Part shown: positions 2,120-30,673 of the stretch, in pieces
Layout: each line of letters starts with the position of its first letter
Numbering within the stretch: position 1 is the stretch's first letter
From: Actinomycetes bacterium
GTDB taxonomy: Bacteria > Actinomycetota > Acidimicrobiia > Acidimicrobiales > JAJZXF01
Direction: 5' to 3'
NCBI GenBank assembly: GCA_021802485.1
Contig: JAJZXF010000010.1
Span: 1 to 49,533, forward strand
DNA: 49,533 nt
Notes under the pieces: generated by a model
Database searches by the model: none
What the model saw: the letters and a program-made list of their open reading frames with translations, nothing else
Told to the model about the DNA's origin: nothing
Translations under genes and position numbers: made by a program

Positions 2120-3166
2120 CTATCCAGCGAGCTCGTTTATTGCGTCTATGAGTTCCCTGAGGCGTCCATAATGGTGGCGAGTGTAGTGAAAAGCGAGCCG
2201 GGCAAGGTCGAGGCTGTCATGAGTGGAGCGCTCGGGTGGGAACGGCCTAGCCCGTTCGATCTTTCCGGTGGCACAAATGTCGGAGAACCGCTTGTTGAGC
2301 CGGCGGAGTTCTGTAGCATCCGGGGGATTCTTCATGCGAAGGACAAGTAGGTCTCCAACCCAACGTGCTGAGCGATAGTTGTGGTAGAAGCGGGTGATGA
2401 TGCGCGCAGCGTCATGGACATCGTCGGTTATATGGAAGAGGAAGCGGTCGCTTGGCGCGATGAAGCCGCTTGCTCGGAGGTTGGTGTTGATGAACTCGAA
2501 CCACGCCAGCCAGTAGGTCCCGCCAGGGGTGTCCACGAGAAGCACTGGCGCAGGCTGTGCCTTGCCGGTCTGGAGGAGGGTGAGTAGCTCGAACATCTCG
2601 TCGAGGGTGCCAAATCCACCCGGCAGGACAGCGTATGCCTGGGATTCCTTGATTAGCATCAGCTTGCGGGTGAAGAAGTACCGCATCTCGACGAGCTTCG
2701 GATCGGAGGCTATGAAGCGGTTCGGGCCCTGCTCGTCCGGAAGGCGAATGTTGACGCCGAATGAGTTGTCGGGTCCCGCTCCTTCCATGCCAGCAGCCAT
2801 GATTCCCGGTCCGGCGCCGGTCACGACCTTCCAACCCTCAGCGGCGAGGATCCTCGTGAGATCCCGCGCCTGGGCGTAGAGGGGGTCTTCGGGACGGGTG
2901 CGAGCAGAGCCGAACAATGTGACCTTGCGCTGGAGGCGGTAGGGTCGGAATACATCAAAGGCCTCTGACATCTCAGAGAGGGCGGCACTTGCGATCTTTA
3001 GGTCGAGGCGATCCGATGTCGCCTGCGCCATCTGCACGGACGTGACGAGCATCGCCGACAGGAGATCCTTGTTTGCATCGGCTCCGGTCGAATCGACTAA
3101 GTCGTCGATAAGCCGCTTTAATTCAGGTGAGAGGCCGTCGCTGGCAGCGAGAGTTCCATCACTCAC
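2120..3166 (-). CDS. LOG-family (lysine decarboxylase-like) nucleotide-binding protein
   Basis: 348-residue Rossmann-fold protein of the LOG/TIGR00730 family. Members best studied elsewhere are phosphoribohydrolases that release cytokinin-type bases from nucleoside monophosphates, and many bacterial members have no proven substrate. The family motif PGGFGTLDE lies at residues 182-190, preceded by the glycine-rich GAGPGIMAAGMEGA segment (about 117-130) and the FFTRKLML stretch. About 75 extra N-terminal residues precede the core, making it longer than classic LOG proteins. The GTG start overlaps the stop of fbiC (GTGA, 3163-3166), so the two are probably translated together. A role linked to F420 is only suggested by this coupling. 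Confidence 0.85.
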   Translation of the reverse strand: MSDGTLAASDGLSPELKRLIDDLVDSTGADANKDLLSAMLVTSVQMAQATSDRLDLKIASAALSEMSEAFDVFRPYRLQRKVTLFGSARTRPEDPLYAQARDLTRILAAEGWKVVTGAGPGIMAAGMEGAGPDNSFGVNIRLPDEQGPNRFIASDPKLVEMRYFFTRKLMLIKESQAYAVLPGGFGTLDEMFELLTLLQTGKAQPAPVLLVDTPGGTYWLAWFEFINTNLRASGFIAPSDRFLFHITDDVHDAARIITRFYHNYRSARWVGDLLVLRMKNPPDATELRRLNKRFSDICATGKIERARPFPPERSTHDSLDLARLAFHYTRHHYGRLRELIDAINELAG

Positions 3167-5478
3167 GTGCGTGTAAGTCCCGCAGGCTCAGGTCGAAGAA
3201 GCGGGGAGTAAAGGGTGTTCCGCTGAACAAGCACCCTGCCGAGTGGCAAGAGGAGATCCTGGAAGTCTGCCTCCGTGAGGCGCTGCCCGTGACGAGCACC
3301 TGCTGCCCGCGAGATGTTCTCGTCCATGAGGGTTCCGCCGAGATCATTAGCGCCCGCGAGCAGTGCTTGCCGTGACCCCTCGATGCCCATCTTTACCCAG
3401 CTCACCTGGATGTTCGTGATCAATGGGTGGTATGCAATACGGCCGACTGCGTGCATGAGAATGGCCTCGCGAAATGTCGGGCCCCTGCGTGCGCGGCCCT
3501 GTAAGAAGATCGGAGATGCCATGTGAACGAATGGGAGCGGCACGAACTCAGTGAATCCCCCCGTGTGCGCCTGAAGGGCCCGCGTACGAAGGATGTGCCT
3601 TGCCCAATGGCGCGGGGTCTCTACGGAGCCGAACATGATCGTCACGTTGGAGCGCAGTCCTACGCGATGGGCAAGCCGGTGGACCTCGAGCCACTCCTCT
3701 GTAGTGAGCTTGTCCGGGCACAGCACATCGCGCACCTCGTCGTCGAGAATCTCCGCCGCGGTCCCCGGTAGGGTGCGAAGACCCGCATCGTAGAGCGCCT
3801 GAAGGTATGACTCGAGCGGTTCTCCCAGCCGTCGCGCTCCCTCTAGGACCTCGAGGGCGCTGAATGCGTGTACGTGAATCGATGGCGCTGCATCTCGCAC
3901 GGCCTTCACGACATCGAGATAGTAGGCGCCGTCGAAGCTGGGATGGATCCCGCCCTGCAAGCAGACCTCCGTAGCGCCTGCTTCTACTGCCTCGCTCGCC
4001 CTGGTCGAAATCTCTTCGAGGCTGAGTAGGTACGGCGCCCCCCGTAGGTTGAGTGACTGCGGACCCTTGGAGAACGCGCAGAAGCGGCATTTGAAGGTGC
4101 AGATGTTCGTGTAGTTGATGTTCCGGTTTGCGACCCAAGTGACAGCGGCGCCAGATGTAGCGTCCCGGAGATCGTCTGCCACCTCGATCACGTGCGCGAG
4201 AGCCGCCCCACGGGCTGAGAACAGCGTTACGAGCTCATCTTCACCAGCTTCCTGTCCCCCGAGGATTCCATCCAGGACCTCCATCACGCTCCCTTGCGCA
4301 CTTGCACGGCTTCGCTGGAGGGAGGCGCCTTGCGGGCCTCTTGAAACGACTACCGGCGGCTCCAGGTCCCCGCCTGAGGACCAGGCGTGGTCTCTGGCCA
4401 TGAAAGATGCATCCGAGGCCGCTAGCACTGCTGACCGCATTGCTGGGGCCAGCCAGCGCCGCGGTTCTCTTGCGAAGGAGGGGTAGATCGGGAGTCGTGG
4501 AGCGAGGTCGAATCCGGCTTCGTTCACAGCAGCCTCGAGCTGTTCCAGGTGCGGCCACGCCCTTTCCGGGTTCACGTGGTCGATCGTCACGGGCGAGATG
4601 CCACCGAGATCATCTATGCCGGAGTCGAGCAGGAGGGAGAGGTCGTCCGCAAGGTTGGGTGGTGATTGCAGGTGCACGTCCGGTGCCAAGATCAGTCTTG
4701 CTGCAGTTAGGGACCAGAGGAGCTCATCGGAGCTGCATGCACTCTCGTTGCGCATTGCGGTGAAAGGCTTTGGAAGGAACGGCTGGACAATCACCTCCTG
4801 GATATGTCCGAAGCGCTGGTGTGATGCAGCGATCGCCTCCAGGGCGCCGACGCGCGAATCGCGTGACTCGCCGATGCCGACCAGGATGCCTGTAGTGAAC
4901 GGGATTCCGAGCTCACCCGCTGAGTTCAGGGTCTCAAGCCTGCGCTCAGGCGTCTTGTCCGGGGATCCACGGTGACACTCAAGACCTGGTTCTAGTGTCT
5001 CGATCATCATGCCCTGACTCACTGAAACCTCGCGCAGCTCTGCTAGGTCCGCTGTGCAAAGTGCACCTGCATTGGTGTGGGGGAGCAGGCCGGTCTCGGT
5101 GCGAACAAGTTCACAAAGATGAACCAGGTAGTCAACTGTAGAGTTGAATCCCGCCTCATCGAGCCAGCGTCGTGCCAGCGGGTAGCGCTCTTCGGGGCAC
5201 TCACCGAGGGTGAACAGGGCCTCGTGGCAACCCATCCTCTGGCCTGTTCGTGCAATTGCGAGGACCTCATCCTGGTTGAGGAAGGGGGAGCTGAGCCTTG
5301 CGGGGGCCTTTGCAAAGGTGCAGTATCCGCAGCGATCACGGCATAGCTGGGTGACGGGGATGAAGACCTTTGGTGAGTACGTGATGACCCCGTTGCAAAG
5401 AGCATCGCGTGTGGCCTTGACTGTGGCCGAGACCTCGGCCGATGTGGTGGCGGGCAACCGATCCCAGTTCACTGGCAT
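3163..5478 (-). CDS. fbiC: FO synthase, fused CofG/CofH (FbiC)
   Basis: Two-domain radical SAM enzyme that makes the 7,8-didemethyl-8-hydroxy-5-deazariboflavin (FO) chromophore of coenzyme F420 from tyrosine and a flavin precursor. The N-terminal half (CofG) has a CX3CX2C cluster motif, CRDRCGYC at residues 46-53. The C-terminal half (CofH) has a second one, CTFKCRFC at about 460-467. The length of about 771 residues fits actinobacterial FbiC. I place the start at the ATG at 5478 (MPVNWDRL) because the 28 codons upstream, open to 5562, look unlike the family. Neither start has a strong ribosome-binding site. Presence of FbiC implies F420 use by the cell. Confidence 0.93.
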   Translation of the reverse strand: MPVNWDRLPATTSAEVSATVKATRDALCNGVITYSPKVFIPVTQLCRDRCGYCTFAKAPARLSSPFLNQDEVLAIARTGQRMGCHEALFTLGECPEERYPLARRWLDEAGFNSTVDYLVHLCELVRTETGLLPHTNAGALCTADLAELREVSVSQGMMIETLEPGLECHRGSPDKTPERRLETLNSAGELGIPFTTGILVGIGESRDSRVGALEAIAASHQRFGHIQEVIVQPFLPKPFTAMRNESACSSDELLWSLTAARLILAPDVHLQSPPNLADDLSLLLDSGIDDLGGISPVTIDHVNPERAWPHLEQLEAAVNEAGFDLAPRLPIYPSFAREPRRWLAPAMRSAVLAASDASFMARDHAWSSGGDLEPPVVVSRGPQGASLQRSRASAQGSVMEVLDGILGGQEAGEDELVTLFSARGAALAHVIEVADDLRDATSGAAVTWVANRNINYTNICTFKCRFCAFSKGPQSLNLRGAPYLLSLEEISTRASEAVEAGATEVCLQGGIHPSFDGAYYLDVVKAVRDAAPSIHVHAFSALEVLEGARRLGEPLESYLQALYDAGLRTLPGTAAEILDDEVRDVLCPDKLTTEEWLEVHRLAHRVGLRSNVTIMFGSVETPRHWARHILRTRALQAHTGGFTEFVPLPFVHMASPIFLQGRARRGPTFREAILMHAVGRIAYHPLITNIQVSWVKMGIEGSRQALLAGANDLGGTLMDENISRAAGARHGQRLTEADFQDLLLPLGRVLVQRNTLYSPLLRPEPAGLTRT

Positions 5479-23694: not shown

Positions 23695-23719
23695 CGAGTA
23701 AAGGCTACCGTTGGAGTGG

Positions 23720-25078
23720 ATGGATCGGCGCATCTACGGGTTGGAGAACGAGTACGGGGTTACATGTACCCTACGCGGGCAGAGGCGGCTCAGCCCCGAC
23801 GAAGTAGCGCGTTACCTTTTCAGGAGGGTTGTGAGCTGGGGCAGATCGAGCAACGTCTTCCTCGAGAACGGCGCCCGGCTCTACCTCGACGTTGGGAGCC
23901 ATCCCGAGTACGCGACCCCAGAGTGTGACTCGATCTCCGATGTCGTCGTCCACGACAAAGCAGGCGAACGGATCCTTGAGAGCCTCGCAAGTGGCGCTGA
24001 GAGCCGTCTTCACGAGGAGGGGATCAAGGGAAGCGTCTTCGTGTTCAAGAACAACACGGACTCTGCGGGAAACTCCTACGGCTGCCACGAGAACTACCTG
24101 ACCAACCGACTCGATGACTTCAGCCACTTCACTGATGTGCTTATCCCGTTCTTGATCACGAGGCAGATTTACGCTGGCGCAGGCAAGGTGCTCCAGACCG
24201 CGAGAGGGCCTATCTACTGCTTGAGTCAGCGGGCCGAGCATATCTGGGAAGGCGTGTCGTCCGCTACGACGAGGTCCAGACCGATTATCAATACCCGAGA
24301 CGAGCCCCACGCTGATGCCGAGCGCTTCCGGCGCTTACACGTGATCGTTGGTGACTCGAACATGAGCGAGTACGCTACGTTCCTCAAGGTCGGTGCGACG
24401 AGCATCGTGTTGAGGATGCTCGAGGATCGCGGGACCATCCTTCGCGACATGAAACTCGAGGATCCCATCAAAGCAATACGTGATATCAGCCGCGATATCA
24501 CCTGCAAGCACCCTGTGCGTCTCGTCAACGGCAGGGAACTGAATGCGCTCGACATCCAGTTTGAGTACCTGAACCGCGCAGTGCGCTACCGAGACAGGAA
24601 CGGCCTCTGCCCGGACGAGGACAAGGCTCTCGACATGTGGGCCGACTGTCTTCAGCGCATGGAGTCGGATCCGGTTTCGATGGACCACGAGTGCGATTGG
24701 GCGATCAAGTACCGGGTAATCGAGGCATACAGGGCGCGCCATGGCCTGGACCTGTCGCATCCGAAGATCGCGCTGGTCGACCTTCAGTACCATGATGTCA
24801 ACACCCAGCGTGGCTTGTTCTATCGCCTCTCGTCGCACATGCCACTGGAGCGGATTTCGTCAGACGAGCGCATATCTGAGGCCGTTACGACCCCGCCAGG
24901 CACGACCAGGGCGAAGTTGCGGGGGGAGTTCATCAAGCTAGCGAAGGAGCGCAGGAGGGACTACACGGTGGACTGGGTGCACTTGAAGCTCAATGACCAT
25001 GCTCAGCGAACGCTACTTCTAAAGGATCCGTTCCGGTGCGAGGATGAGCGGGTCGAGAAGCTGATGAGCTCCCTCTGA
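23720..25078 (+). CDS. pafA: Pup-protein ligase PafA
   Basis: 452-residue ligase that phosphorylates the Pup C-terminal Glu with ATP and joins it to a substrate lysine. It matches mycobacterial PafA closely from residue 1 ([17 protein letters not shown]). Catalytic Asp57 is in [10 protein letters not shown]. The ATP/Mg block [17 protein letters not shown] and the C-terminal [14 protein letters not shown] are intact. I prefer the ATG at 23720 over the TTG at 23711 on homology. Its transcription must either pass through the opposing DUF2007-like gene or start in the 25-base gap. Confidence 0.96.
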
Positions 25079-25222
25079 GGCTGCGTCTAGCAGCGACGCG
25101 GCAGGTGAGTGACTTGTGAGTCCACAGGAGATGCTGGCGGGACCCACGACGAGCATGCAAGGCCCGAGCGGCTCGGCTGGTGGCCGTACAGCGCAACCGT
25201 CGTCGGCTAGCCTTCGAGTACC

Positions 25223-26020
25223 GTGAGCGAGATCTTGGACCCCGACCAGAGTGAGGATCGTGTGGCTACGCCTGAGCCGGCAACGGTTTCCACGCAGGCA
25301 GGTGGTCTTACCCTGGGGCCCGATAGCGGGGACGTTGATCGGGCCGGAGATGCCAGCGGAGACGGCCAGAGCGCAGCGGGCGCGGCCTTAGCACCCGAGA
25401 CACAGACACATACCCTTGCACCTGCAGTCGACGAAGAGCAAGCGAAAAGCGCGAGCGATTTGGCAAAGAAGCCCAGCGGAGAGCAGGGCAAGCGCAGCGG
25501 ATCACGCTGGCTTTTCGAATGGGTTCTGGTGATTGGGATCGGCCTCTTGGTTGCGGTCCTTCTGCGAGCCTTTGTCGTCCAGGCGTTCTACATTCCTTCC
25601 GGCTCGATGGAGCCGACCCTCAAGCCCAATGACCGTATCCTTGTGAACAAGCTGAGCTACCTGTTCCACCCACCGCGCGAAGGGAACATCGTTGTCTTCG
25701 CAAAGCCTCCGAACGTGCTTCTCCCGTCCAACATCAAGGATCTGGTGAAGAGGGTCATCGGGCTTCCAGGCCAGACGATCTGGTCATCCGATGGCCACGT
25801 CTTCGTGAACGGTCACCGTCTTTCTGAGCCATTCCTGCCCAGTGGAACCGCTACCCACGGGATCCGCCGCCAGACGATACCCCCGCACGAGTACTTCGTG
25901 ATGGGGGACAACAGGTCGAATTCCGAGGACAGTCGCGTCTTCGGCCCTATACCGCGCTCGCTCATCGTTGGGCAGGTGATGGTCCGATTCTGGCCACTGT
26001 CGCGGTTCAAGTTCTTCTGA
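25223..26020 (+). CDS. lepB: Signal peptidase I
   Basis: 265-residue membrane serine protease that removes signal peptides after Sec or Tat export. A long polar, acidic cytoplasmic N-terminus (about 95 residues) precedes one membrane span (WVLVIGIGLLVAVLLRAFVV). The Ser/Lys dyad is Ser128 in IPSGSME and Lys176 in DLVKRVIGLPG. The conserved MGDNRSNSEDSR is near the C-terminus. The start is GTG. Confidence 0.95.
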   Translation: MSEILDPDQSEDRVATPEPATVSTQAGGLTLGPDSGDVDRAGDASGDGQSAAGAALAPETQTHTLAPAVDEEQAKSASDLAKKPSGEQGKRSGSRWLFEWVLVIGIGLLVAVLLRAFVVQAFYIPSGSMEPTLKPNDRILVNKLSYLFHPPREGNIVVFAKPPNVLLPSNIKDLVKRVIGLPGQTIWSSDGHVFVNGHRLSEPFLPSGTATHGIRRQTIPPHEYFVMGDNRSNSEDSRVFGPIPRSLIVGQVMVRFWPLSRFKFF

Positions 26021-26085
26021 TCGACGAAAGGTCTGCGTTGCCAAGCGCGCAGCTTTTCTCAGTGTTCGAACAGTGGTAGACCGTG

Positions 26086-26107
26086 TAGACTCGATGGCGT
26101 GACCATG
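26086..26107 (+). promoter_or_regulatory. Possible promoter and start region of the Xre/RES module
   Basis: A -10-like TAGACT (26086-26091) lies about 13 bases before the ATG at 26105, which would suit leaderless transcription. GTAGAC occurs twice (26076-26081 and 26085-26090), a spacing that could serve an operator for antitoxin autoregulation. No clear -35 was found. Confidence 0.25.
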
Positions 26108-26150
26108 GCACTAACGCATGCATTCAAGGGCACTAACGCATGCATTCAAG
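26107..26150. repeat. Perfect 22-bp tandem duplication at the antitoxin start
   Basis: The 22 bases at 26107-26128 are repeated exactly at 26129-26150. Because 22 is not a multiple of three, the duplication throws the ATG at 26105 out of frame with the antitoxin. Removing one copy restores it. The ATG at 26118 within the first copy still reads in frame. Confidence 0.95.
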
Positions 26151-26667
26151 GTTCTCGAAAAGCAGACGGGCGACGACCCGGCCTTGGCCGAGGCGGTCGT
26201 TTTCCTGGCCGAGGAGTTGGACGGCCCTGATGACCCTTTCGCAGACGTCCCCGAAGGAGCTCGGCTCGCCGCCCGGCCTCGTTGGCGAGCGGCGACTTCG
26301 CTAGCTACGTGAGTCCGCAACTGCCTTAGCGTTCGATACGGCAGGGGTTGTTGCGGCCATCTCTTCGATCACCGACCGCAAGGGGGTCGACCGCCGAAGG
26401 CGGCGGGGCCAGCTCCTCGGGTGGCGGGTCGGCACGCGGACACTTCATCCCGCTTGGCAGTTTGACCTCCGCCGGGGTGACACGCGGGCCGGACTCCGTG
26501 TTGTCTTGGCCGCCCTCTCGGAGCTGAACTCCAACCCGGAAGCGGCTGATTCACTGATGCGGGCTTCCCGCGATGACCTGGGCGGGCGGAGTCTGGCGGA
26601 CCTCTTCAGCGCCGGACATGTTGAGACCGTGCTTCGCCTTATTCGGGCTTCGGCGGAGCAATCCTGA
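26118..26667 (+). pseudogene. Xre/MbcA/ParS-type antitoxin, frameshifted
   Basis: Two frames join into one antitoxin. 26118-26312 gives the N-terminus (ALTHAFKVLEKQTGDDPALA). After a one-base shift near 26310, the next frame gives a helix-turn-helix-like part (DTAGVVAAISSITDRKGVDR, then RRRRGQLLGWR) and a DUF2384-like C-terminus (TLHPAWQFD, SLADLFSAGHVETVLRLI). The second frame has no ATG, GTG or TTG of its own. The original start appears to be the ATG at 26105, put out of frame by the 22-bp duplication. It is probably a pseudogene, though reduced expression by frameshifting cannot be excluded. Confidence 0.65.
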
Positions 26668-27269
26668 CACCTTTCCCCCCGAAACGGCCCGCAGGGCTGC
26701 ACCTGTCTCCCGCCCGTGGCACCTTCTGGAGGATCGATGTTGCCCACCCTGACGAATGGGAGTGGTCGCCACGCTCTTCCCCGATTGGGCGCTTCGACCC
26801 CGCGTCCAACAGGTTCCGCGTGCGCTACGGAGCTAACCGTCCAGCGACCGCTGCCCGCGAGCTCTTTGCGACACGCAACATCACCGAGGCCGATGGAGAG
26901 CTCTGGCTCGTCGCCCTGGATTCCTTTCCCTCTGCCCTCAATCTGACTCGCCAGGGGAACCTCGACGCGCTCGGGCTTGACGACCGGGTGAGTACCGGAC
27001 GGATCGACACCGACCAACGCCGGGATCCCGATCCGTTGCTTGAGACCTGTGGCCAGCTAAGCGACGCGGTTTTCGACTGGTGGGGCGGCTCACTGCCTCC
27101 GCTTCTCTACCGGGCGCGCACTATGCCAGCGACCGGACGCAGCATCGCTCTTGGCCGCTGGGCTTCGCCTCGGGGGACCAAGGTCGGCCAGTTGCACGAA
27201 GCCGTCGCTCTCCTCAGCTATCTCGTCCTTCGGGCGGGGTTCACGGTGCCGCTCGAGTGGATCGCGTGA
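26664..27269 (+). CDS. RES-domain toxin, degenerate start
   Basis: About 201 residues if read from the CTG at 26664, which overlaps the antitoxin stop exactly where an ATGA junction would be expected. FWRIDVAHPDEW, IGRFDPASNRFRVRYGA, then ARELFA and PPLLYRARTMPATGRSIALG form the RES pattern (conserved Arg, Glu, Ser). Characterised RES toxins degrade NAD+. The first standard start in frame is the GTG at 26820, which would remove the N-terminal third including FWRI. The gene is probably silent or poorly expressed, in keeping with a broken antitoxin. Confidence 0.6.
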   Translation: MTPFPPKRPAGLHLSPARGTFWRIDVAHPDEWEWSPRSSPIGRFDPASNRFRVRYGANRPATAARELFATRNITEADGELWLVALDSFPSALNLTRQGNLDALGLDDRVSTGRIDTDQRRDPDPLLETCGQLSDAVFDWWGGSLPPLLYRARTMPATGRSIALGRWASPRGTKVGQLHEAVALLSYLVLRAGFTVPLEWIA

Positions 27270-27494
27270 GCACCTCAGCCCGATCCCGGCACGCCTCGGT
27301 GCTGACCAACCGTCTGCGAGCACCTGCTCCAACCTCGGCTCCAGCTCGTCTAGAGGCTGCTGATGTAGTCAGGCGTTGGTCCATTTCGCCTCGTGGACGC
27401 CATGGTCACAGCCTTGCGATCTTCGCCAGAGGCGACTACTTCAGCGGCCCTGAAGGGCGGGGTTCTCCAGCGCGGTTCTGATAAGCTGGACGGG
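27270..27494. other. Gap between the RES gene and tatB
   Basis: The tatB frame is open back to 27393, but those 34 codons do not look like Tat sequence. Nothing else supported was seen. The tatB promoter should lie here. Confidence 0.4.
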
Positions 27495-27944
27495 ATGCCG
27501 AGCATCGATCCATCGAAGATCATGGTCGTCTTGGTGGTCGCGCTCATCGTGCTTGGCCCCGACAAGCTCCCACGCCTTGCACGCCAGCTTGGCGAGGCAT
27601 GGGCGCAGCTTTCCCGCTGGCGGGAGAGGGTAGAGGGCGAGATGCGCGATGTATTCCCGGACCTGCCTACGCCCACGAGGATTGTAGAGGCTGCGCGATC
27701 GCCGTTGAAGTTGCTTGATCAGTTAGCAGCAGAGCACTCTGCGGACTTCGCTGCGGCTGGGGGCACCGCGCCTTCGCCCAAACCGGACTCAGAGCCCAAA
27801 CCAAACTCAGAGCCAGCGAGTCTGGACGAGGCGGGTGCTACAGCGTCAAGCGACGTTTTTGTTTCAACGCCAGCGACCCATGATGCTGCCTCATTGCCTG
27901 CAAGCGAGGAAGTGCTCTTTCTCGACGACCCGTGCATGAACTGA
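27495..27944 (+). CDS. tatB: Twin-arginine translocase subunit TatB (TatA/B family)
   Basis: 149 residues. A short N-terminus and one membrane helix (IMVVLVVALIVLGP) are followed by the Pro hinge and an amphipathic helix (KLPRLARQLGEAWAQLSRW). The rest is a Pro/Ser/Ala-rich tail with near-repeats of PKPDSEPKPNSEP. The LGPDKLP hinge fits TatB better than TatA. The gene precedes tatC by 28 bases. I use the ATG at 27495. Confidence 0.88.
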   Translation: MPSIDPSKIMVVLVVALIVLGPDKLPRLARQLGEAWAQLSRWRERVEGEMRDVFPDLPTPTRIVEAARSPLKLLDQLAAEHSADFAAAGGTAPSPKPDSEPKPNSEPASLDEAGATASSDVFVSTPATHDAASLPASEEVLFLDDPCMN

Positions 27945-27972
27945 TCCCCGCAGGGATTCAGGAGCTAAGACG

Positions 27973-28767
27973 TTGACGTCCGAAGGCGCGAAGGCAGAAG
28001 ATCGCAGGCGGCGTTTTAGCGTCTCCAGGCTCCTTCGGGGCCGGGGCCGCCCGGATCCAAATGCGATGACGCTCGCTCAGCACCTTGTCGAGCTTCGAAA
28101 GCGGCTGTTGATCTGTGTCCTTGCGGTATTCTGCGGGGGAATTGTTGCGTTCTTACTCTATCCGCAGGTGCTTGCCTTTCTTCAGGGCCCGTACTGCAAC
28201 CTGCGGCCAGGTCACTGCGGGCTCTACGTCACGGGACCCCTCGACGGGCTGTCGCTCAGGGTTTCGATGGCCACCTACGGCGGGCTCGTATTCTCATCGC
28301 CGGTGCTCTTGTGGCAGGTTTGGCGGTTTATCACCCCTGGGCTCGATCCGAAGGAGAAGCGCTATGCGATCCCCTTCGTAGCTGCGTCAATCGTCTTGTT
28401 CCTGTTCGGGATGCTGGTCGCGTATGTGACCTTCCCTCATGCACTTGCGTTCCTGATCGCGATCGGTGGTGCTGGGGTCCATACGTGGTACAACCCGATG
28501 CGCTACGTGAACCTCATCGTGTTGTTGATGGTCGCATTCGGCATCGCGTTTGAGTTTCCCGTTCTCTTGGTCTCACTTGAGCTTGCCGGAGTGCTTAGTC
28601 CTGCGAAGCTGTCTTCATGGAGAAGGTGGGCGATAGTCGCAATAACTGCTGTTGCTGCCTTTATCACGCCAAGTTCAGACCCGTTCTCAATGATGGCGCT
28701 CGCGATTCCGATGTACCTGTTCTACGAAGTCTCGATCCTGATCGGAAAGGTGTTCAAGCGAGGTTAA
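27973..28767 (+). CDS. tatC: Twin-arginine translocase subunit TatC
   Basis: 264-residue six-span membrane receptor for twin-arginine signal peptides. The N-terminal MTLAQHLVELRKRL holds the conserved LxELRxR motif. The cytoplasmic loop FITPGLDPKEKRY and the C-terminal ITPSSDPFSMMALAIPMYLFYE are typical. The start is TTG, with CAGGAG ten bases upstream. It is paired with tatB. Confidence 0.96.
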   Translation: MTSEGAKAEDRRRRFSVSRLLRGRGRPDPNAMTLAQHLVELRKRLLICVLAVFCGGIVAFLLYPQVLAFLQGPYCNLRPGHCGLYVTGPLDGLSLRVSMATYGGLVFSSPVLLWQVWRFITPGLDPKEKRYAIPFVAASIVLFLFGMLVAYVTFPHALAFLIAIGGAGVHTWYNPMRYVNLIVLLMVAFGIAFEFPVLLVSLELAGVLSPAKLSSWRRWAIVAITAVAAFITPSSDPFSMMALAIPMYLFYEVSILIGKVFKRG

Positions 28768-28894: not shown

Positions 28895-30673
28895 ATGTCT
28901 GATTCAATGCAAGAGCAGAAACTCAATCTGGGTACCCATGTGGCAGCCCAATATCCCGCCGAGAGCTTCACGCGAAGCGAGGCTGCGATCCTTCAGAGGT
29001 ACTTCACCAACCTCGACCAGCCAGTATTCGCTATCGTCAACCTCCCCGAGGTGGTCAAGGGCGCGCTATTTGCTCGGTACTCACGTTCCCCGAAGAGCCT
29101 CCGCAGGCTCTTCCTGGATGAGTTCGCGGACAATGCGCCAAACCCAGAGGACACTCGCTCTGGTGAAGAGGGTGAGCAGGAGGCGTCTCTCGTGGGGGTG
29201 GAGCGTGCTGAGCGCCTTTACGAAAGGGTCTTTGTCGAGTTTGGCGACGACTCGGTCGCACAGCTTGGAGGGGTGCATCTCGCATGCGAGCAGGCGTCAA
29301 ACCTGCTGACAAAGGTGCTTGAGCGCGGGCGCTTGATGGCTTACTTGGAACAATCGACCCGATACATTGCCTACAACGCCCGCCTGCCTACGGGCCGGTA
29401 TCGCTACTATCGCGGGCCTGAGATCCTTTCGTCGCCTCTTGGAGCGCGCTACGTGGGCGACATGGATCAGATGTTTGATTCGTACTCAAGCCTCCTTGAG
29501 AAGCTGCTCGGTTACCTGCCAGCCAGGCACCCGAAGGATCCGGGGGATTCCGACTTCGTACACCGCCAAGCACTCAGGGCTAAAGCGCTAGACCTTGCGC
29601 GGGGCCTTCTTCCGGCGGCAACGCTTTCAAGCGTCGGCATTTACGGGACCGGACAGGCGTTCGAGAGTCTTCTCATACGGATGCGGTCTCACCCGCTCGC
29701 AGAGGCTCGCAGCTACGCGGAGCTCATGTTAACGGAGCTGCGAAAGGTGATTCCGTCGTACCTGCGTAGGGTGGACGACCCGACGAGGGGTGGATCTCAG
29801 TCTCGTTACCTTGAACAGACGCGTGAGTCGACACTGCAGGTCGCAAAGGAGACGCTCAGCTCACTCCGAGACCTAGGTGGGCGAAGTCTGCGCTCAACAA
29901 GTCGCACTAGCGAAGTGGCGAAGTCCTGGGTGGATGAATCGATTGCCGCGGTGGCGAGCGAAGTGGGGGCCCATGTCAGCTTGACGGACTTTGATCCACA
30001 AGGTGAGAACAAGGTCATTGCAGCGATGCTGTATGCGGCCTCGAACCTGAGCGACGCAGCGCTTCTCGCGGCAGTAGAGGAGATGTCCGACGAGGAGAGG
30101 GCGGAGGTGGTAAGAGCGTACGTCGGTGAGCGCCGTAACCGGCGCGAAAAGCCGGGCCGTGCCTTCGAGCGCACCTCGTACCGTTTCGACATCGTCTCGG
30201 ACTATGGCGCATTCCGCGATCTGCAACGGCATCGAATGCTGACAATCGAGTGGCAGTCTCTCGGGACTTGGCTCGGCTACGTGGTTCCCGATGAGGTTGT
30301 TGAGGCTGGCCTGGAGCGTGGGTACCGTCACTGCCTCGAGATTTCGGGCGCACTCTACGATGACATGCTGAAGGAGATCCCCGGCGAGGCCCAGTATGCA
30401 GTTAGCTTTGCATACCACCTCCGCTACGTGATGCAGATGTCCGCGCGCGAGGCGATGCACCTCATCGAGCTGCGATCATCCCCGCAAGGGCATAGCTCTT
30501 ACCGGTGGCTCGTCCAGCAGATGCACGAGCTCATACGGACCAAGGCGGGCCACCGGCACATCGCTGCCGCGATGTCATTCGTGTCGACCGAGGACGTCTC
30601 GCTGGAGCGCCTATCGAGCGAGCGGCGCAGTGAAACGCGCCGTGCAGCGTTGAAGCAGCCCGGTCATGAATAA
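28895..30673 (+). CDS. Double-length ThyX-like protein
   Basis: 592 residues, more than twice a normal ThyX (about 220-250). The C-terminal half contains RHRMLTIEWQS at residues 445-455, which keeps the RHRX7S spacing of flavin-dependent thymidylate synthase but differs in the middle residues. An upstream repeat-like domain includes GDDSVAQLGGVHLACEQASN and EQSTRYIAYN. ThyX converts dUMP to dTMP using FAD and methylene-tetrahydrofolate. Whether this tandem form does so is not known to me. It starts at ATG, stands alone, and has about 130 bases upstream. Confidence 0.8.
   Translation: MSDSMQEQKLNLGTHVAAQYPAESFTRSEAAILQRYFTNLDQPVFAIVNLPEVVKGALFARYSRSPKSLRRLFLDEFADNAPNPEDTRSGEEGEQEASLVGVERAERLYERVFVEFGDDSVAQLGGVHLACEQASNLLTKVLERGRLMAYLEQSTRYIAYNARLPTGRYRYYRGPEILSSPLGARYVGDMDQMFDSYSSLLEKLLGYLPARHPKDPGDSDFVHRQALRAKALDLARGLLPAATLSSVGIYGTGQAFESLLIRMRSHPLAEARSYAELMLTELRKVIPSYLRRVDDPTRGGSQSRYLEQTRESTLQVAKETLSSLRDLGGRSLRSTSRTSEVAKSWVDESIAAVASEVGAHVSLTDFDPQGENKVIAAMLYAASNLSDAALLAAVEEMSDEERAEVVRAYVGERRNRREKPGRAFERTSYRFDIVSDYGAFRDLQRHRMLTIEWQSLGTWLGYVVPDEVVEAGLERGYRHCLEISGALYDDMLKEIPGEAQYAVSFAYHLRYVMQMSAREAMHLIELRSSPQGHSSYRWLVQQMHELIRTKAGHRHIAAAMSFVSTEDVSLERLSSERRSETRRAALKQPGHE

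Follow-up and report, generated by a model that had tools for sequence, protein, structure and literature searches.

A tandem ThyX-type protein from an Acidimicrobiales genome as a probable thymidylate synthase with its active-site signature divided between two halves

How a protein that carries two ThyX-type domains, with the familiar active-site signature complete in neither of them, could serve its cell is the question raised by the locus analysed here. The gene occupies positions 28895..30673 on the forward strand of the window, by which is meant the whole 49,533-nucleotide stretch of contig JAJZXF010000010.1 (assembly GCA_021802485.1) under analysis, and its open reading frame runs from an ATG start over 592 residues. 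Two ThyX-type domains had been suspected in this chain by an earlier, sequence-only reading, and their presence is borne out by the alignment, by the ThyX fold predicted for both halves and by Pfam, which detects Thy1 (PF02511) twice along the chain (E 4.5e-36; 124.9 bits vs a cut-off of 24.8); in a genome scan with the Thy1 profile, the halves give separate scores of 62.8 and 60.5 bits. The NCBIfam equivalog profile for ThyX, TIGR02170, likewise matches the frame twice, at 51.5 bits and thus below its cut-off of 87.9, a shortfall that counts against the explanation favoured below; the same profile gives 14.1, 60.8 and 49.5 bits with three further tandem proteins. An RHRX7S-x-RY of the TIGR02170 type within one domain was not found, the literal RHRX7S of the C half being devoid of the R-Y. 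A phmmer search of the single 592-residue protein against the PDB returned no match. Upstream of the gene, the region 23711-28767 carries pafA, a signal peptidase gene and tatC (27973-28767; Pfam TatC), the tandem frame starting about 130 bases downstream of the last; the same three genes lie upstream of the tandem ThyX in a related locus (L036), and tatC matches are found at seven of ten related loci.

Both halves are of ThyX type in their predicted structures, and ThyX structures are their best structural matches. For the C half, taken as residues 356-571 of the whole-protein model (mean pLDDT 82.6, pTM 0.82), the best 47 rows of the structure search were all ThyX-family chains (Z 13.5-16.2, rmsd 2.2-3.2, 170-197 residues), and the first row after them had a Z of 4.1. 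The sequence-only reading had made its proposal depend on the fold of the first half, and a ThyX fold was found there in the predicted model of the N half alone (pLDDT 82.7, pTM 0.76). Its best 47 rows were again all ThyX-family chains (Z 7.8-11.4, 135-186 residues), with Z 11.0 and an rmsd of 3.1 over 169 residues for 3hzg; the first row after these fell to Z 6.2 over 64 residues, and the best Foldseek match was 3gwc (5.5e-7). The N-half fit is looser than that of the C half, with an rmsd of 6-11 in several superpositions, and model confidence is low (block pLDDT about 50-75) in the N-half catalytic region, around residues 80-130; both points count against the best explanation. Between the halves lie an inter-domain helix and linker, about residues 301-355 (29795..29959, forward strand), delimited by alignment A1 and with pLDDT <50 at 328-355. 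Within it, about 23 residues (327-349; about 29873-29941) are absent from most relatives in A1.

Known ThyX enzymes are homotetramers in which each active site is formed between three subunits. In the site of Mycobacterium tuberculosis ThyX, subunit A provides the RHR motif (95-97) and Arg199, subunit B provides Ser71 and Arg190, and subunit C provides Arg87, Ser105, Arg107 and the lid residue Tyr108, as described in PMC6514825; such sharing of the site between subunits is established (PMC3498832, PMC9931769). Traced in the tandem protein, these residues are found distributed over its two halves, all features being on the forward strand. The N half, about residues 20-300 (28952..29794; Pfam stretch 98-288 and the fold of this half alone), keeps the residues of the dUMP side and has lost the RH of RHR. 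S120 (29252..29254) stands in the column of Ser71, whose role is given in PMC6514825; by the alignment columns, the motif E143-RGR-LMAYLEQ-S154-T-R156-Y157 (29321..29365) comprises a degenerate RHR and then a kept S-x-R-Y; and Q254 (29654..29656) takes the column of Arg190. The C half, about residues 356-567 (29960..30595; structure matches over 356-571), keeps RHR and the Arg199 column and is without S-x-R-Y: it presents R445-H446-R447-X7-S455 (30227..30259), R518 (30446..30448) in the Arg190 column and R527 (30473..30475) in the Arg199 column. Between them, the two halves supply the columns of Ser71, Arg95, His96, Arg97, Ser105, Arg107, Tyr108, Arg190 and Arg199, each at least once. Neither half has Arg in the Arg87 column (N136 and Y437), as is likewise the case in Thermotoga maritima by alignment, and this counts against the best explanation.

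The conservation of this division was assessed in 93 aligned tandem proteins. Alignment A1 consists of 40 rows, namely the window protein and 39 of 42 loci, two of the remaining loci being the window itself (L001, L002) and one, close to L027, being left out (L029). To these were added eight tandem proteins from seven of ten plasmid records and one of 34 phage records (L079-L086), 40 of 74 long matches that derive from 73 of the 246 phylum-sample genomes, one IMG/VR contig (L141), and four phage proteins (L143-L146) from 16 records, among which Tunturi_5 was already included and 11 siblings were left out. Viral scans with two of the added proteins as queries gave nothing (L085) and apparently the query's own record alone (L083). 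Identity to the window protein ranges from 22% to 64% among the first 88 tandem proteins, with phage and plasmid forms at 22-29%.

By column counts, RHR is present in the C half of all 93 proteins, four Bacillus/Paenibacillus forms reading RHNR, and is missing from 92 of the 93 N halves; the single protein with RHR in both halves (L017) counts against the best explanation. The S-x-R-[YF] motif is found in every N half, the Tyr108 column holding 92 Y and one F, and S-x-R in no C half, so that RHR only in the C half together with S-x-R-[YF] only in the N half describes 92 of 93 proteins. Canonical ThyX proteins of the same phylum carry RHRx7SxRY within one domain in 29 of 29 cases (L062, represented by a wrong frame, left out beforehand). 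The Ser71 column is S in all 93 N halves and in no C half, and the Arg107 column is R in one of 93 C halves. At the Ser105 column seven of 93 C halves have S, the rest showing R, P, D, A, E, K, Q, T and other residues. It was an RHRX7S motif with unusual middle residues that had first drawn attention to this protein. The literal string R445-H446-R447-MLTIEWQ-S455 is indeed there, in the second half, but its S455 is no family feature, and an altered RHRX7S was rejected as the key feature since this serine is not conserved. At the Arg199 column every C half has R, as do 78 of 93 N halves; the third R of RHR survives in 84 of the 93 N halves. For the Arg190 column, 90 of 93 proteins have R in a single half (84 in the C half, six in the N half), none has it in both and three have it in neither; the N halves read Q in 84, R in six and other residues in three. 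Free pattern counts give RHR-like strings in three of 93 N halves and RHR...SxR[YF] in eight of 93 C halves; these take in matches outside the motif columns, apparently for instance the NRRHxPGRA stretch, and the column counts were preferred. The five proteins fetched after the split hypothesis had been formed (L143-L146 and L141) all fit it, and the split is seen in Actinomycetota, in Bacillus/Paenibacillus plasmids and in phages.

The search for thyA or a standard thyX elsewhere, which the sequence-only reading had advised, yielded neither in the genome of the window, which is 2.86 Mb in size and 97% complete. ThyA (PF00303) gave no match at E<=10 and no other Thy1 match exceeded the cut-off; a match at G000:C11 was rejected as a second thyX at 13.1 bits in a frame of 65 residues. 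Thymidine kinase was also not found above its cut-off in this genome (best 14.4 bits), nor was dihydrofolate reductase (DHFR) at E<=1. The missing DHFR is compatible with ThyX because the product of ThyX is tetrahydrofolate and not dihydrofolate (PMC6514825). With no thyA or DHFR in the genome, and with neither a second thyX nor a thymidine kinase scoring above cut-off there, the tandem protein is, on this sequence evidence, most likely the thymidylate synthase of the cell and the sole source of dTMP found, which lends support to the enzyme class that had been proposed from the letters.

The tandem type is widespread in the order, and the named relatives belong mostly to Acidimicrobiia or Acidimicrobiales. 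Thy1 is matched in 142 of 148 genomes of the order sample, 138 of them with two matches, one with three and three with one, and two of these three single matches lie in short frames (158 and 221 aa). ThyA is matched in five of the 148 genomes, twice in a weak and partial manner. Six of the 148 have neither Thy1 nor ThyA, which counts against the best explanation. In the phylum sample, a ThyA match occurs in three of 73 tandem genomes vs 65 of 173 others (Fisher p 6e-9, uncorrected for relatedness); the three positives are a partial match of 51 bits (G109), a fragment of 74 positions (G270) and a match in two pieces (G338), and many among the 65 are weak as well, at <50 bits.

It is in terms of a divided site that the protein is probably best explained: a flavin-dependent thymidylate synthase that arose by tandem duplication of ThyX, whose active site is shared out between the two halves and which is the only dTMP source found. 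The C half would be specialised as the subunit A side, with FAD, RHR and R527, and the N half as the subunit C side, with dUMP, S154, R156 and Y157. Two chains would come together as a pseudo-tetramer of four domains. Two of its sites would be composite and working, pairing the C-half RHR with the N-half S-x-R-Y, and two would be degenerate; the Arg199 column of each working site would also be supplied by the C half. Neither half is predicted to function alone, because the active site would be divided between them. As to subunit B, the actinobacterial type has S120 and Q254 in the N half and R422 and R518 in the C half at the corresponding columns, and these residues assign the role to neither half, which counts against the best explanation. 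The Bacillus/Paenibacillus plasmid forms and Tunturi_5 keep the Ser71 and Arg190 columns both in the N half, by which that half would act as the B subunit too, and the site in these forms would be built from one C half and both N halves.

Since the signature is incomplete in both halves and fused pseudo-domains are common in other families, the protein could be a thymidylate synthase in which a single domain does the work and the other is a pseudo-domain, either decaying or kept for structure only; a pseudo-domain was suggested from the sequence at the outset, and we consider this reading unlikely. The term is apt insofar as each half has lost part of the active site, but the parts lost are different, and it is the RHR-less N half that is better conserved, with a mean pairwise identity of 0.60 vs 0.52 in the C half and 30 vs 22 invariant columns. 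The N half therefore does not have the look of decay, and a decaying pseudo-domain was rejected. In addition, the columns of Ser71, Ser105 and Arg107 are intact in all 93 N halves and that of Tyr108 holds Y or F, while the C half is without these residues, and a tetramer built from C halves only would be devoid of the canonical dUMP ligands.

The low score against the ThyX equivalog could also point to a ThyX-like flavoenzyme whose methylation substrate is another uracil nucleotide and which is not the dTMP synthase of the cell, in the manner of PolB, a UMP/dUMP methylase which has the ThyX fold and whose structures (4p5a, 4p5b) appear among the C-half matches at Z 13.7-14.4. These matches are no better than those of the ThyX enzymes, however, and with such a function no dTMP route would be visible in the genome, in an order most of which has no ThyA; a flavoenzyme with a new substrate, the other suggestion made from the sequence, thus fares poorly in a genome with no ThyA, no DHFR, and neither another Thy1 nor a thymidine kinase above cut-off, and we hold it to be very improbable. 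As little credence is given to two full, independent sites of altered chemistry that employ non-canonical residues in each half. Each half does have invariant residues of its own, for example R422, D442 and Y536-R537 in the C half across the 83 actinobacterial-type rows, yet independent sites would not be expected to show a complementary pattern of canonical residues, especially in phage and plasmid forms so distant in sequence from the window protein.

The history of the tandem protein may be approached through comparison of profiles. The actinobacterial N half is close to the Firmicutes-plasmid N half (3e-22) and the phage N half (4e-29), and the actinobacterial C half to the phage C half (6e-20) and the Firmicutes-plasmid C half (6e-15), vs 0.0016 at best between N and C halves. 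The Firmicutes-plasmid C half matches canonical ThyX at 2e-15, about equal to its closeness to the actinobacterial C half, and the phage C half matches canonical ThyX weakly (2e-4). In a 54-row tree built from 23 halves of each kind and eight canonical ThyX, the N halves form one clade (100/100) and the C halves another (74/99); the C-half branches are long, those of phages included, and with its weak bootstrap of 74 the C side is less sure, which counts against the best explanation. The profile comparison and the two clades together fit a single old duplication before these groups parted. The N half of the protein with two RHR motifs (L017) groups in the tree with L012 beside other actinobacterial-type N halves; L017 may represent the state before the split was complete.

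A broader scheme can be put forward tentatively, and we rate its chance somewhat below even: an ancient, once-only duplication would have turned homotetrameric ThyX into an obligate pseudo-heterotetramer in which each pair of chains forms exactly two sites that are catalytic and two that are not. It would then have become the only thymidylate synthase throughout an entire order and also have entered plasmids and phages, the degenerate pockets having taken on a new role such as the binding of a regulator or the shaping of substrate binding. Residues of the degenerate pockets are strictly kept in the actinobacterial type, namely R146, Q254 and E257 in the N half and R422 and D442 in the C half.

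Compared with canonical ThyX, or FDTS (TIGR02170; M. tuberculosis, T. maritima, Helicobacter pylori), the tandem protein shares the ThyX fold in both halves and the RHR, S-x-R-Y and Arg199 column within the whole chain; it differs in its two fused domains, in the placement of RHR and S-x-R-Y in separate ones and in its score below the TIGR02170 cut-off. A domain-duplicated ThyX as the only synthase was noted for Chloroflexi by Valas and Bourne in 2009 and called 'not characterized' (PMC3224940). Like the tandem form here, with which it is probably identical, that form combines a domain duplication with the place of only synthase, and it is presented without residue analysis in the relevant passages of that report. 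For the split signature, no account was found in the open-access literature, including passages of PMC10733785, PMC5954106, PMC7824862 and PMC9931769.

Among phages, the 'thymidylate synthase' of Microcystis phage Ma-LMM01 (phrog_36506) is a tandem protein in which RHR and S-x-R-[YF] are divided as described above, and so are the proteins of Vibrio phages BONAISHI and Yong MS32, Microcoleus phage My-WqHQDG and Tunturiibacter phage Tunturi_5. These five differ from the window protein in being very distant, shorter (461-518 aa) and of another Arg190 column, and in four of the five Pfam marks one Thy1 stretch only. The frame at 3001-4386 of Vibrio phage vB_VmeM-Yong MS32 (L143) is annotated as hypothetical and is a tandem ThyX of which Pfam recognises the N half only. 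The plasmid tandem forms are annotated merely as FAD-dependent thymidylate synthase.

ThyX is an antibacterial target. In the canonical enzyme a mutation alters every role together, because the sites are common to three identical subunits. If the divided-site reading is true, the FAD (RHR) face and the dUMP (S-x-R-Y) face would lie in separate domains where each role could be mutated alone, and one FAD and one dUMP per chain would be predicted. The protein would then be a clear example of duplicated domains dividing the labour between them, and it would account both for the ThyX genes of an actinobacterial order that is large and mostly uncultured and for several 'hypothetical' phage genes.

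Some further forms came to light in the course of sampling. Single-domain ThyX-like proteins that are apparently circularly permuted occur in five genomes (L130-L134 in G197, G185, G156, G220 and G302), none of which has a tandem ThyX match and four of which have no ThyA match. In G220, Thy1 profile positions 59-190 precede positions 11-80 in one frame, the 11-80 match being below cut-off, and T-H-R-x-FSRNS replaces RHR. Two different full-length tandem ThyX genes (L088 and L089) are found in one genome, G186. Plasmid NZ_OY725790.1 of Parabacteroides distasonis carries a tandem ThyX of the actinobacterial type, 45% identical to the window protein (L080), directly upstream of the genes for an ATP-binding protein and then a HIT-domain protein; its occurrence in a Bacteroidota plasmid is likely the outcome of transfer.
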